Numbered from the stretch's first letter, positions 47,882 through 53,135 are shown. The stretch is 64,000 nt of DNA from Anaeromyxobacter soli (GCF_022808855.1 NZ_JAKZLF010000003.1:124001-188000), one strand, 5' to 3'. The notes: a model not told the origin generated them from the sequence alone. A program made the numbers and translations.

Positions 47882-49165
47882 TCACACCCCCGCCAGCGTC
47901 AGGGCCCAGCGGACGGCCCCGGCGGTGACGAGCACGAGGACGGGGCTCATCCGGAAGCGCGACAGCGTGAGCGTGGTGGCGACGGCGATCCCGACGTCGG
48001 CGGGGCCGCGCATCGACGCGCCGAGGGTGACCGCGGCGGCGGCCATGAGCCCCACGACCGCCGGGGTGAGGCCGCGCAGCGCGGCGCGGATCGCCCGCCG
48101 CGAGCGCATGCGCAGGAGCCAGCCCCCGAGCACGACCACGAGCGCGAAGGGCGCGGCGAAGATCCCGACCGTCGCCACGATCGCGCCGGGGAACCCGCGC
48201 GCGACGTAGCCGATGAAGGTCGCCATGAGGAGCACCGGCCCCGGGGTGAGCTTCCCGACGGCGATGGCGCTCCTGAACTGCTGCTCGGTGATCCAGCCCG
48301 CGTCCACCACCGTGGCGTGCAGGTGGGGCACGATCGCGAACCCGCCGCCGTACGCGCCGAGCCCGATGCGGAAGAAGAGCGCGCCGATCGCGACGAGGCC
48401 GCCGACGCCGGCCTGGGTGAGGAGGCCGAGGGGAGCCACCACCGCGAGCGGAGCGCCCCCGTCCGCGCCGCGCGTCTCATGCAGCGGCTCGAGCGGCTGA
48501 CCCTCGTCCGGCAGCGCCACCGGCGGAGACGGCTTGCGGGGCGCCCGGCGGATGCGGGCGAGCCGCGCGCGCTTCAGCATGAGGTCGATGACGAGCCCGG
48601 AGGCGATCCCGAGCGCCGCGATCTCGCCGGAGGCCGCCCCGCCGGCGATGCTGAGCAGGAGCGCCACCGCCGCGACGCCCATCTGCCAGGGCCGTCCGAT
48701 CGACGTCCGGACCATGCGCAGCGCGAGCGCCGCCACGATGCCCACCACGGCCGCGTTGAGGCCCGAGAGGACCACCTCCGCGCGCGGCTGCACGCCGAAC
48801 CGGACGTAGGCCCACGCGAGGGCGAGCGTGAGGAGCGCCCCCGGCAGCACGAAGCCGACGTACGCCGCGAGCGCCCCGCTCATCCCGCGCAGCCGGAGGC
48901 CGACGTGCGCGAGCGCGTTCGCGGCGGCGCCGCCCGGGAGCATCTGCGACACGGTGGTGGTGTTGGCGAACTCCCGCTCCGTCAGCCAGCGGCGGCGATC
49001 GACCGCGAGGTGCCCGATCATCCCGAGCACGCTCACCCCGCCGCCGAACCCGATCGTGCCGAGCCACAGCGAGGCGCGGGCGAGCTCCCAGTGGGTGGGG
49101 ATCGCGCGGGTGGCGGTCGCGGTCCGCTCGCCGCCTCGATGGCCCTCGGTCCTCGCCCTCAGCAT
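47882..49165 (-). CDS. chrA: Chromate transporter ChrA, two-domain form
   Basis: An inner-membrane exporter of 427 residues in the CHR family. It has two homologous halves. The first begins ASLWLGTIGFGGGVSVLGMI with SQMLPGGAAANALAHVG; the second has FFRIGLGAYGGGFAIVPHL and AVGKLTPGPVLLMATFIGYVA. The GFGGG/GAYGGG and PGG/PGP motifs are the hallmarks of both halves, with about 10-12 membrane helices overall. Long-chain CHR proteins export chromate using the proton gradient and give Cr(VI) resistance, but some have other anions. The start at 49165 was chosen for length. It is divergent from the methyltransferase gene. Confidence 0.92.
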   Translation of the reverse strand: MLRARTEGHRGGERTATATRAIPTHWELARASLWLGTIGFGGGVSVLGMIGHLAVDRRRWLTEREFANTTTVSQMLPGGAAANALAHVGLRLRGMSGALAAYVGFVLPGALLTLALAWAYVRFGVQPRAEVVLSGLNAAVVGIVAALALRMVRTSIGRPWQMGVAAVALLLSIAGGAASGEIAALGIASGLVIDLMLKRARLARIRRAPRKPSPPVALPDEGQPLEPLHETRGADGGAPLAVVAPLGLLTQAGVGGLVAIGALFFRIGLGAYGGGFAIVPHLHATVVDAGWITEQQFRSAIAVGKLTPGPVLLMATFIGYVARGFPGAIVATVGIFAAPFALVVVLGGWLLRMRSRRAIRAALRGLTPAVVGLMAAAAVTLGASMRGPADVGIAVATTLTLSRFRMSPVLVLVTAGAVRWALTLAGV

Positions 49166-49291
49166 CGTCAGGTGTCCGAACGCTGAAACCGGGCGGCGCC
49201 GTCCCCTCGTGGTGGCCGCCCTCGACCCGCGTGTGCATACCAGGGTCCTCGTCCCGTCGCCACGAACCTCCGCGCTTCCCGCTGGCTCTCC

Positions 49292-49310: not shown

Positions 49311-49958
49311 ATGCCCCTCCCCGGCGACGCCCCCTCGCACCTCGACCGCGCGCTCGAGGCCCGGTACTCCCCCCTCGCCAGCACGGCGGGCTCGCTCTCC
49401 TGCGGGAGCGTGCTCGAGCACGCCGCGCCCGGCGCGGGCGAGACGCTCGTGGATCTCGGCTGCGGCCGCGGGCGCGAGCTCCTGCGCGCGGCCGCGGCCG
49501 TGGGCCCCGGCGGGCGCGCGATCGGCGTCGACGCGAACGCGGCGATGATCGCGGCGGCGCGCGAGCTCGCGGGAGGCCTCGCGCAGGTGCGGCTCGTGCG
49601 CGCGGACCTCGCCGCCGTGACGCTGCCGGACGGCGAGGCCGACGTCGTCGTCTCGAACTGCGCCATCAACCACGCGCCGGACAAGGCCGCCGTGTACCGG
49701 GAGGTGCACCGCCTGCTCCGCTCCGGCGGGCGCTTCGTCGTCTCCGACGTCGTCTCGGAGACCGCCCTCCCCGACTCCGTGCGCAACGACCCGGCCGCCT
49801 GGGCCGCATGCTACGGGGGCGCCATCCCGGAGGCGGACTACCTCGCCGCCATCGCCGCGGCCGGCCTCGCCGAGGTGAGCGTGCTGCGCCGCACGGCGCC
49901 CTACGAGAAGGGCGGCGTGCGCGTCCTCTCGATCACCGTGAAGGGCCGGCGCCCTTAG
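49311..49958 (+). CDS. SAM-dependent methyltransferase, ArsM-like
   Basis: A 215-residue class I methyltransferase. Motif I is LVDLGCGRGREL near residue 47, with the acidic ribose contact in GVDANAAMI near 74. The segment DVVVSNCAINHAPDK (Cys117) and the later WAACYGGAIPEADY (Cys167) match the arrangement of arsenite methyltransferases, where conserved cysteines in SNCV-N and CxGGA segments bind As(III). A further cysteine is at residue 31. It lacks the longer N- and C-terminal parts of typical ArsM (about 350 residues), so arsenic need not be the substrate. It is the first gene of the peptide cassette, 17 bases before the radical SAM gene. Confidence 0.85.
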   Translation: MPLPGDAPSHLDRALEARYSPLASTAGSLSCGSVLEHAAPGAGETLVDLGCGRGRELLRAAAAVGPGGRAIGVDANAAMIAAARELAGGLAQVRLVRADLAAVTLPDGEADVVVSNCAINHAPDKAAVYREVHRLLRSGGRFVVSDVVSETALPDSVRNDPAAWAACYGGAIPEADYLAAIAAAGLAEVSVLRRTAPYEKGGVRVLSITVKGRRP

Positions 49959-49975
49959 CGCCGGAGAAGGCCTCG

Positions 49976-51328
49976 ATGCGCCTCTCGCGCTCCACCCTCG
50001 TCGCGCCCATCCCCGGCTCCGTCCAGGTGCTCCTGGTGCAGCCGCTCACCGGCCAGGCCGCGCTCGTCGCCGCCGAGGACGCCGCCGCCCTCCGCGCGCT
50101 GGATCGGGGCGGGCCGCTCCCCGCGTCGCTGCCCGAGGAGACGCTCCGCGCCGCGGCCTTCGTGGTCGAGTCCGACGACGACGACCGCGCGCTCCTCGCG
50201 CGCGCGCGCGCCGACTTCGAGAAGGAGGCCGCGCGGGCGCCGACGCAGCTCATCGTGGTCCCGAGCTTCGGCTGCAACCTCGCGTGCACCTACTGCTACC
50301 AGGAGGTCTTCGACCCCTCCGCGGCGACGCTCATGCGGCCGGAGGCGGTCGAGGCGTTCTTCGCCTACGTGGACGCGAACCACGCCGCCGAGACGCCGCG
50401 GCCCTACGTGACGCTCTTCGGCGGCGAGCCGCTGCGTGACACGCCCGCGCACCACGAGCGGATCGGACACTTCCTCCGCAGCGCGGGGGAGCGGGGCCTC
50501 TCGCTCGCGTTCGTCACGAACGGCCACGATCTCGAGGCCTTCCTCCCCGCGCTCGCCGCGGGCCCGGTCAAGGAGGTGCAGGTCACGCTCGACGGCCCGC
50601 GAAAGGTCCATGACGCGCGGCGGCCACACGCGAGCGGGCGAGGCACCTTCGACCGGATCGTGGCGGGCATCGACGCGCTCGTCCGCGCCCGGATCCCCGT
50701 GAACCTGCGCGTGGTCGCAGATCGCCAGAACCTGCCCGCGCTCCCGGAGCTCGCCGAGCTCGCGGACGCGAAGGGCTGGCTCGAGCTGCCGGCCTCGCGC
50801 TTCAAGACGCAGGTGGGCCGGAACTACGAGCTGTTCGGCTGCGCCTCGCGCCAGCGCCGCGAGGACCTCTTCGATCGCGTCGAGCTCTGGGCCCACTACC
50901 TCGAGCTCGCCGAGGCGCACCCGGTGCTCCGCCGCTTCCACCGACCGCGGTTCCACGGCATCGGCCACCTCTCCGACACGGGCGAGCTGCCGGCGCCGAA
51001 CTTCGACGCCTGCCCGGCGGCGAAGAAGGAGTGGGCCTTCGGCCCCGACGGGAGCCTGTACGGCTGCACGGCGACCGTCGGCCACCCGGCCCACATGCTC
51101 GGCCGCTACTACCCGGTCGTCTCGCGGGACGAGGCCGCGATCGCGCGCTGGCGGTCGCGCAGCACGCTCACGATCCCGGGCTGCGCGGGGTGCGCCTCCG
51201 CGCCGGTCTGCGGCGGTGGCTGCGGCGCCATCGCGTGGGATCGGGAGGGGACGCCGCTCGCGCCCGACTGCCGCCCCGTCGTCGAGCTCTACGGGCTGGG
51301 CGCGCGGTACTACGGCCTCGATACCTGA
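49976..51328 (+). CDS. Radical SAM/SPASM peptide-maturase-like protein
   Basis: A 450-residue radical SAM enzyme with a complete SPASM domain. An N-terminal region of about 90 residues (VQVLLVQPLTGQAALVAAED) resembles those of other peptide maturases. The SAM cluster motif is FGCNLACTYCYQ (Cys100, 104, 107), followed by TLFGGEPL. The SPASM domain fits the canonical pattern: C...G-x4-C in DACPAAKKEW to GSLYGC, then CAGCASAPVCGGGC (C-x2-C-x5-C-x3-C) and a final DC. Two auxiliary 4Fe-4S clusters are thus predicted. Such enzymes modify ribosomal peptides or sulfatases; no sulfatase is near. The likely substrate is one of the small cysteine proteins just downstream. Confidence 0.93.
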   Translation: MRLSRSTLVAPIPGSVQVLLVQPLTGQAALVAAEDAAALRALDRGGPLPASLPEETLRAAAFVVESDDDDRALLARARADFEKEAARAPTQLIVVPSFGCNLACTYCYQEVFDPSAATLMRPEAVEAFFAYVDANHAAETPRPYVTLFGGEPLRDTPAHHERIGHFLRSAGERGLSLAFVTNGHDLEAFLPALAAGPVKEVQVTLDGPRKVHDARRPHASGRGTFDRIVAGIDALVRARIPVNLRVVADRQNLPALPELAELADAKGWLELPASRFKTQVGRNYELFGCASRQRREDLFDRVELWAHYLELAEAHPVLRRFHRPRFHGIGHLSDTGELPAPNFDACPAAKKEWAFGPDGSLYGCTATVGHPAHMLGRYYPVVSRDEAAIARWRSRSTLTIPGCAGCASAPVCGGGCGAIAWDREGTPLAPDCRPVVELYGLGARYYGLDT

Positions 51329-51469
51329 CCGGGCGGGATGCGGACCGTCCCGGGTCACATCCCGGGGGGCGCCACCCCGCCTGCGACCGCATGTCGCGAA
51401 CCCCGCGTGCCCTCAGCGGCTCGTACTCAACGGCGTGAGGATCCGACGCACCCGTTCCTGGAGGCGCAC

Positions 51470-51655
51470 ATGGTCCCCGCGGCAACGCAGACGGTCCTGC
51501 AGCTCTCCCCTAAGGAGCTGCGGATCATGGTCCAGTCGCTCGTGAACTGCCTCGCGACTTGCCAGACACACAAGGTGAAGCCGGACGCACCGTGTGAGGA
51601 CTGCGACGCCGCTCGCGCCCTGAAGGAGAAGATCGAGTCCCACCTCGCACCCTGA
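51470..51655 (+). CDS. Small cysteine protein, 61 aa, in the radical SAM cassette
   Basis: A 61-residue protein with a strong ribosome site (GGAGGCGCAC before ATG 51470). A helical N-terminus (LSPKELRIMVQSLVNCLATC) leads to Cys27 and Cys31 (CxxxC), His34, then Cys42 and Cys45 (CEDC), and a charged C-terminal helix. The four cysteines and the histidine could hold a zinc ion or an iron-sulfur cluster. It begins 141 bases after the radical SAM stop and ends 11 bases before the 34-residue peptide gene. It could be a second substrate, a leader-binding helper or a metal carrier. No family recognised. Confidence 0.75.
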   Translation: MVPAATQTVLQLSPKELRIMVQSLVNCLATCQTHKVKPDAPCEDCDAARALKEKIESHLAP

Positions 51656-51666
51656 AGGAGAGCGCG

Positions 51667-51771
51667 ATGAAGCTGCTCACCACGCTCAAGAAGCCCACCT
51701 GCTGCGCGCCGGAGAAGGTCGCGCAGTGCTGCGCCAAGGCATCCCCGCTCGTCTCGGGCTGCCACGACTGA
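51667..51771 (+). CDS. Cys-rich 34-residue peptide, candidate RiPP precursor
   Basis: A very short gene with a good ribosome site (AAGGAGAGCGCG before ATG). The peptide has a lysine-rich, leader-like start (MKLLTTLKKPT), then Cys12-Cys13, a seven-residue spacer, Cys21-Cys22, a second spacer and Cys32 close to the C-terminus (GCHD). Five cysteines in 34 residues, two of them adjacent pairs, is far from chance. A terminator begins six bases after the stop codon, so this peptide's mRNA would be more abundant than that of the genes downstream, as is usual for precursor peptides. Substrate of the radical SAM and methyltransferase enzymes, or a metallothionein-like metal-binding peptide, are the two best readings. 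Confidence 0.7.
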   Translation: MKLLTTLKKPTCCAPEKVAQCCAKASPLVSGCHD

Positions 51772-51777
51772 AGCACC

Positions 51778-51803
51778 GCGGGGTCCGCCCCGCTCCTTTT
51801 CCC
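51778..51803 (+). terminator. Terminator or attenuator between the 34-aa peptide and thioredoxin genes
   Basis: GCGGGG (51778-51783), loop TCCG, CCCCGC (51788-51793), then TCCTTTTCCC. It sits directly after the peptide gene and before the thioredoxin gene and would make expression of the peptide uneven with that of the reductases. Confidence 0.7.
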
Positions 51804-51862
51804 ACCCTCACCTCCCCCGGCCTCCGGATCCTCCGGACGGGAGAGGTCTGCCTGGAGGTCCG

Positions 51863-52198
51863 ATGGCCGCATCCGTCGAGGAGATCAACGCCGCGCAGTA
51901 CGAGGAGCGCGTGCTCGGGGCAGAGACCCCGGTCGTGCTCGACTTCTTCTCCACCGAGTGCCCGCCCTGCGAGGCGCTCGCGCCCAAGTTCGAGGCGGTC
52001 GCCGAGCAGTTCGCGGGCAGGGCGCGGTTCCTCAAGGTCTTCCGGCAGGGCAACCGCGAGCTCGCGACGCAGCTCGGGGTCACCGGCAGCCCGACCCTCG
52101 TCTTCTTCAAGGGCGGGCGCGAGGTGGGGGCGCGCATGACCGGCGAGGACATCAAGCGGTCCGCGCTGAAGTCCGCCGTCGAGGCGCTGCTCACCTGA
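51863..52198 (+). CDS. Thioredoxin-like protein with CPPC active site
   Basis: A 111-residue cytoplasmic thioredoxin. The active site is TECPPCEAL near residues 32-38, in place of the WCGPC of classical thioredoxin, and the following strand and cis-proline loop [13 protein letters not shown] are intact. The tryptophan before the first cysteine is absent. This is the partner of the reductase encoded 16 bases downstream. Nonstandard CxxC thioredoxins paired with a dedicated reductase often serve a particular pathway, here perhaps the cassette upstream. Start ATG 51863 after GGAGGTCCG. Confidence 0.9.
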
Positions 52199-52214
52199 GC
52201 GGGAGCTCCTGGCC

Positions 52215-53135
52215 ATGAACGAGCGCTACGACGTCGTCGTCATCGGGGCTGGACCCGCCGGACTCACCGCCGCCATCTACGCGGCGCGCGCGAGGCTCAG
52301 GACGCTCGTGATCGACGAGAGCATCCCGGGCGGGCAGGTGAAGACGACCCACAAGGTGTCGAACTACCCCGGCTTCCCGGAGGACATCCACGGCTCCGAG
52401 CTCTCGCTGGCGTTCGCGAGGCAAGCCGAGCGCTTCGGCGCGAAGATCCGCCGCTCGGTCGAGATCACGGCGCACGACCTCGCGCCCTTCGTGAAGACGC
52501 TCGAGCTGGACGAGTCGGAGACGGTCGAGGCGCGCGCGGTGATCGTGACGACCGGCGCGAAGCCGCGCCCGCTCGGGGTCCCGGGAGAGGACACGTTCAA
52601 GGGCCGCGGCATCTCCTACTGCGCGACCTGCGACGGCGCCTACTTCGAGGGCAAGGACATCCACGTCATCGGCGGCGGGAACTCCGCCGTGGAGGAGGCG
52701 CTCTTCCTCACGCAGTTCGCGCGGAGCGTCACCATCGTCCACCAGTTCGAGCAGTTCCAGGCGGAGCCGGCCTCGGTGAGCGAGGCGCTCACGAACCCGA
52801 AGATCCAGGTCCTGTTCGGACACGAGCCGCGGGCGTTCCACGGCGAGACGGCGCTCGAGGCGCTCGAGGTCGAGGCGCTGCGGACCCAGGAGCGAAAGCG
52901 GCTCCCGACCGACGGCGTGTTCGTGTTCATCGGGATGGTACCGCGCACCGACCTCCTCGCGCGCTACGTCAAGCTCGCCCCGAGCGGCTACGTGAAGACG
53001 ACCGACGACATGGAGACCGAGATCCCCGGCGTGTACGCCGCGGGCGACATCCGCGTGAAGCGGTTCCGGCAGATCACCACCGCGGTGGCCGACGGCACCA
53101 TCGCCGCCCTGGCGGCGCAGAAGTATCTCCGCTGA
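52215..53135 (+). CDS. Thioredoxin reductase-like FAD/NAD(P)-dependent oxidoreductase
   Basis: A 306-residue flavoprotein of the low-molecular-weight thioredoxin reductase type. The FAD motif is [13 protein letters not shown], the NAD(P) motif [16 protein letters not shown], and the redox-active pair CATC in [12 protein letters not shown] near residue 135. The second FAD contact is [15 protein letters not shown]. The region after GGGNSA lacks the HRRDxxR motif that marks NADPH binding in classical TrxB (here [11 protein letters not shown]), so the electron donor may be NADH or ferredoxin. It is paired with the CPPC thioredoxin. Confidence 0.93.

Follow-up and report, generated by a model that had tools for sequence, protein, structure and literature searches.

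What would a cell make with a gene group that sets a radical SAM enzyme and a very short cysteine-bearing peptide beside an ArsM-like methyltransferase and a thioredoxin with its own reductase? The question is raised by a locus in a 64,000-nucleotide stretch of Anaeromyxobacter soli DNA (the window), in which the sequence-only reading described a cassette of six same-strand genes. All six open reading frames were found where it had placed them:

49311–49958, + strand: MT, ArsM-like class I SAM methyltransferase, 215 aa (NF008823 match; alignment to CmArsM, PDB 4fr0)
49976–51328, + strand: rSAM, radical SAM/SPASM enzyme, 450 aa, with a putative RRE-like domain at about residues 1–88
51470–51655, + strand: s61, small protein of 61 aa carrying CxxxC and CxxC motifs (accessory, lineage-specific, 14 Myxococcota loci)
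51667–51771, + strand: precursor-like peptide, 34 aa, MKLLTTLKKPTCCAPEKVAQCCAKASPLVSGCHD (54/57 loci, co-occurrence with rSAM, purifying selection)
51863–52198, + strand: Trx, thioredoxin with a TECPPC active site (PF00085, 1.4e-19; conserved motif)
52215–53135, + strand: TrxR, thioredoxin reductase (TIGR01292, 350.4 bits; motif tally)

The core cassette and its distribution

Profile searches covered 195 genomes of Myxococcota and 345 of Spirochaetota, and rSAM was found in 24 of the former, with strong matches (≤7e-135), and in 33 of the latter, where the weakest match reached 4e-88 and two of the weakest were cut by contig ends. Weaker matches in two further Myxococcota genomes (G074 and G115) lacked the peptide and were assigned to a different family. 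The nearest named relative is Anaeromyxobacter terrae, with an rSAM 92% identical to that of the window, while the spirochaete and distant Myxococcota enzymes are ~34–47% identical to it. Across these two phyla the core cassette consists of MT, the peptide, rSAM, Trx and TrxR, so that the six-gene proposal stood for five open reading frames, which are tightly conserved together, but not for s61, which lies outside the core, nor for a fixed gene order. PADLOC returned generic domain matches only, and the cassette, which matches no model or open-access description that we found in the literature searched, is most likely of the radical-SAM RiPP kind.

The five-gene content, including the short peptide, was kept in other genomes, but its arrangement was not: the compact order MT-peptide-rSAM-Trx-TrxR occurred in 21 loci, the likewise compact Trx-TrxR-MT-peptide-rSAM in 9 and the Anaeromyxobacter order, MT-rSAM-peptide-Trx-TrxR, in 5, the loci in these counts not being independent of one another. 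Constant content with variable order and strand argues for functional linkage over mere common ancestry of a chromosome segment. The pairwise identities of MT, rSAM, Trx and TrxR correlated as well (r 0.78–0.91), which in part reflects common species history. In one spirochaete (L124) the cassette genes are scattered, a second Trx adjoins rSAM, and the Trx-TrxR fusion retains HRRDAFRA.

Within the source family, strong rSAM relatives were present in 17 of 24 genomes, the source genome included, where rSAM is a single-copy gene with three further, remote matches. Neither rSAM nor the peptide was found in three genomes of the same genus (G001, G002 and G006) or in four of the same family (G009–G012), most of them good assemblies, so that gain or loss in this family seems to affect the cassette as a whole. 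In plasmid records neither a close relative of rSAM (best 31%) nor a credible match to the peptide turned up; viral contigs held remote radical SAM proteins only (best 27%), so the cassette is not phage-borne in the viral collection searched.

The s61 family, with the pattern QSLxxCLxTC...CxDCxxA, was encoded near the cassette on either strand in 14 Myxococcota loci and in no Spirochaetota locus; it is an accessory of some Myxococcota and not part of the core. A ChrA-like chromate transporter gene (window 47882–49186, − strand) is divergent from the cassette and had led to a suggested chromate link, which did not hold up, since, of the loci examined, no others than the window and its closest relative had ChrA close to the cassette; the position of ChrA is incidental. 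Among the families most often matched by spirochaete neighbours, no transporter, exporter or protease was constantly conserved by the cassette, and no arsenic regulator or exporter recurred near it. MarR regulators were seen near six of the spirochaete cassettes; these cassettes as a group were surveyed for neighbours, and in two of them a cysteine-rich DUF1847 protein is encoded directly downstream of TrxR (L108:2030-2599 and L117:6031-6579, both − strand).

The peptide and the radical SAM enzyme

The 34-aa peptide gene is preceded in the window by AAGGAG, and a Shine-Dalgarno-like GGAG is usual ahead of the peptide genes in the peptide-bearing loci. The peptides range from 30 to 52 residues, and in 54 of 54 the C-terminal 16 residues read AQCC[AST]Kx[ST]xxxxGCHD followed by the stop codon, with Ala, Gln, Cys, Cys, Lys, Gly, Cys, His and Asp invariant. 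The peptide with Cys-Cys pairs that was first noticed in the window is thus present and its tail pair is invariant, but the first pair is dispensable, conservation being confined to the last 16 residues. The invariant tail residues are encoded by differing synonymous codons, and among 16 family members the variable sites of the tail numbered 2, 1 and 12 at codon positions 1, 2 and 3, respectively, indicating purifying selection. Together with the co-occurrence with rSAM across genomes, this pattern makes the original observation more than a chance finding.

That co-occurrence is nearly complete. The peptide profile matched 23 of 193 Myxococcota genomes, every one rSAM-positive, so that the peptide was present in 23 of 24 rSAM-positive and in none of 169 other genomes (Fisher p 6.6e-29, a value that overstates independence because the genomes are related). 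The sequence-only reading had named absence of the small genes from relatives that keep the radical SAM gene as evidence against it; s61 is indeed missing from many, but the peptide lies close to rSAM in 54 of the 57 loci. Two of the three misses (L018 and L131) lie at contig or flank ends, and the third is an rSAM-positive genome in a 190-contig assembly (G016), in which the profile found no peptide. Since the peptide gene was never found without rSAM, the simplest reading is that of a precursor and its maturase. No NCBIfam or Pfam model recognised the peptide, which annotation from those models consequently leaves nameless, or s61.

The textbook SPASM pattern reported for rSAM was confirmed in full. 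The radical SAM core CxxxCxxC (C100, C104 and C107) and the SPASM residues C346, G359, C364, C403, C406, C412, C416 and C432 were all invariant across 57 aligned sequences, one locus having been entered twice. Its nearest named families are peptide maturases, namely TIGR04463 (rSAM vs C-rich), CefB (NF038107) and PapB (NF047865), and with these and with the thioether-forming SCIFF maturase CteA it shares the radical SAM core, the SPASM cysteines and an adjoining short Cys-rich peptide and, judging by its model, perhaps an RRE-like N-terminus. However, the cassette peptide differs from theirs, an ArsM-like methyltransferase and a Trx-TrxR pair accompany rSAM here, and rSAM falls far under the cut-off of each of the three models (123 bits against 525 for the best-scoring of the peptide maturase models). 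No NCBIfam cut-off was reached by rSAM, and four distant members likewise fell short of the peptide maturase models.

An AlphaFold model of rSAM (pLDDT 81) aligned with CteA (PDB 5wgg) over residues 4–450 (Z 20.4, rmsd 4.0, 385 residues). The N-terminal 90 residues modelled alone gave a pLDDT of 93, and the six top PDB matches of that model were lasso-peptide B1 proteins complexed with leader peptides, with weak Foldseek E values (best 0.014); as modelled, the N-terminal domain resembles an RRE. The RiPP reading is well supported genetically, by the near-inseparability of peptide and rSAM in two phyla, by the likeness to maturases and by the putative RRE-like domain.

The methyltransferase and the thioredoxin pair

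MT is closest to ArsM, matching the subfamily model NF008823 at 1.1e-47 (162.8 bits, under the cut-off of 263), and is shorter than characterised ArsMs. The sequence-only reading had credited it with two As(III)-binding cysteines; such cysteines are kept, but alignment to CmArsM raises the count to three, C31, C117 and C167 corresponding to C72, C174 and C224, which bind As(III) in CmArsM. All three were invariant across 55 sequences. In ArsM enzymes the metalloid is held by cysteine thiolates, and a thiol reductant is required. CmArsM thus shares its fold and these cysteines with MT, but MT has only 215 residues, scores under the family cut-off and sits in a peptide cassette. The three invariant ArsM cysteines and the dedicated Trx and TrxR make a metalloid role for the cassette plausible.

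A separate ArsM-like open reading frame on contig C34 of the source genome (L246:3134-3958, − strand) carries an in-frame TGA at the third As-binding cysteine (IDLWSG-U-IGGALPE). It is probably a selenoprotein, given the TGA and a strong tRNA-Sec match in the same genome, and is probably akin to the UxxG arsenite methyltransferases listed elsewhere (PMC13188914).

The thioredoxin has the CPPC active site described for it, within a TECPPC motif conserved among relatives, and in 32 loci Trx and TrxR are fused in one stop-free reading frame. TrxR exceeds the TIGR01292 cut-off of 343.45 and keeps the CATC active site and GGGNSAxEE, but HRRxxxR is replaced by HQFxx[FL]Q (HQFEQFQA in the window). 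The altered NADPH motif noted in the window is a family trait, [HN]Q[FL]xx[FL]Q taking the place of HRRxxxR in 46 of 48 TrxR sequences. The motif VxxxHRRDxxRA binds the 2′-phosphate of NADPH, and it is changed likewise in the TR3/Trx3 and TRi systems of Desulfovibrio vulgaris, where TR3 prefers NADH (PMC5627308), so that by analogy NADH is the likely electron donor of the cassette reductase. In contrast to the D. vulgaris systems, the cassette TrxR has HQFxx[FL]Q, keeps GGGxxAxE and is paired, in many loci by fusion, with a Trx of its own in a peptide cassette. The source genome retains a second TrxR with HRR elsewhere, and the cassette enzyme therefore looks specialised.

Possible functions of the cassette

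We tentatively favour a RiPP-type pathway in which an intracellular thiol peptide works with MT on a soft metalloid while Trx and TrxR restore the thiols. The RRE-like domain of rSAM would recognise the peptide N-terminus (MK-x-L...), and the enzyme would modify the tail AQCCxKxSxxxxGCHD, most likely through a radical reaction at or beside the cysteines. The mature peptide would probably not leave the cell and would serve there as a thiol ligand, action within the cell being suggested by the lack of a conserved exporter or protease and by the invariant free C-terminus. Through its three invariant cysteines the peptide could present As(III) or another soft metalloid for MT to act on, and each turn would yield disulfides that the dedicated Trx-TrxR may reduce with an electron donor other than NADPH, probably NADH. 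A methyltransferase with its own Trx-TrxR fits such a methylation cycle, given the thiolate binding and thiol-reductant need of ArsM enzymes. Counting against this pathway are the weak E values of the RRE-like domain, the lack of a recurrent arsenic regulator or exporter among the neighbour families most often matched, the shortness and sub-cut-off score of MT, and the rSAM-positive assembly G016 in which no peptide was found. That arsenic is the ligand is what we infer, and methylation of the peptide itself is a serious rival.

According to that rival, which involves no metalloid and which we regard as possible though somewhat unlikely, rSAM would form a thioether or related cross-link, MT would methylate the peptide at Cys, Lys or the C-terminus, and Trx and TrxR would do no more than keep the precursor thiols reduced. 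The nearest rSAM relatives are thioether-forming maturases, the invariant Gln, Cys and Lys of the tail are possible acceptors, and other RiPP pathways have methyltransferases, MT weakly matching the NCBIfam models for ApyS and daptide methyltransferases. However, MT keeps its three As(III)-binding cysteines in all relatives, for which peptide methylation has no obvious need.

A bolder version of the metalloid pathway, which we consider rather doubtful, would have arsenic or some other soft metalloid bound to the ribosomal peptide as a scaffold and methylated there, in a RiPP-based organometalloid pathway. Here rSAM might prepare the thiol site or even, as has been proposed for ArsL, form a carbon-arsenic bond, the ArsM-like MT would methylate the metalloid, and the dedicated Trx-TrxR would reset the thiols. 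For either version of the metalloid pathway there are precedents in the arsinothricin (arsQML) and arsenosugar (ArsM-ArsS) pathways, where a radical SAM enzyme likewise accompanies an ArsM-type methyltransferase and ArsL is proposed to move a SAM fragment onto As(III) (PMC8552651), but a peptide is absent there, and MT scores far under the NF040538 and NF038099 cut-offs.

A redox role, with the mature peptide as a cofactor or a tiny redox protein, Trx-TrxR as its reductase and MT as a maturation enzyme, is unlikely. The fusion and co-divergence of Trx and TrxR, the missing conserved exporter and protease and the invariant free C-terminal CHD would suit such a role, yet neither a dehydrogenase nor any other enzyme that would use the peptide is conserved in the cassette, and the arsenic-type cysteines of MT would be left unaccounted for. 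An ordinary arsenic detoxification operon of ArsM and Trx, with the radical SAM enzyme as an unrelated neighbour, is very improbable: MT is related to ArsM, and the general need of ArsM for a thiol reductant agrees with it, but the near-perfect co-inheritance of peptide and rSAM, together with the parallel divergence of rSAM and of MT, Trx and TrxR across two phyla and differing gene orders, largely refutes it. Scarcely credible is a sulfatase-maturase-like rSAM with a substrate protein encoded elsewhere, an assignment that had been put forward as fatal to the peptide reading and that we rejected: anaerobic sulfatase maturases are among the top structural matches (Z 21.1), but to the core only, the TIGR03942 score is 58.9 bits against a cut-off of 349.45, with the core alone fitting, and a dedicated peptide is nearly always close by.

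Under the thiol-peptide pathway that we favour, as in the cassette itself, radical SAM peptides, ArsM-type methylation and specialised thioredoxin systems are united in a single unit, whose five genes are small enough for direct expression and assay. Its 16-residue peptide tail is nearly unchanged between Myxococcota and Spirochaetota, which points to a specific and old function.
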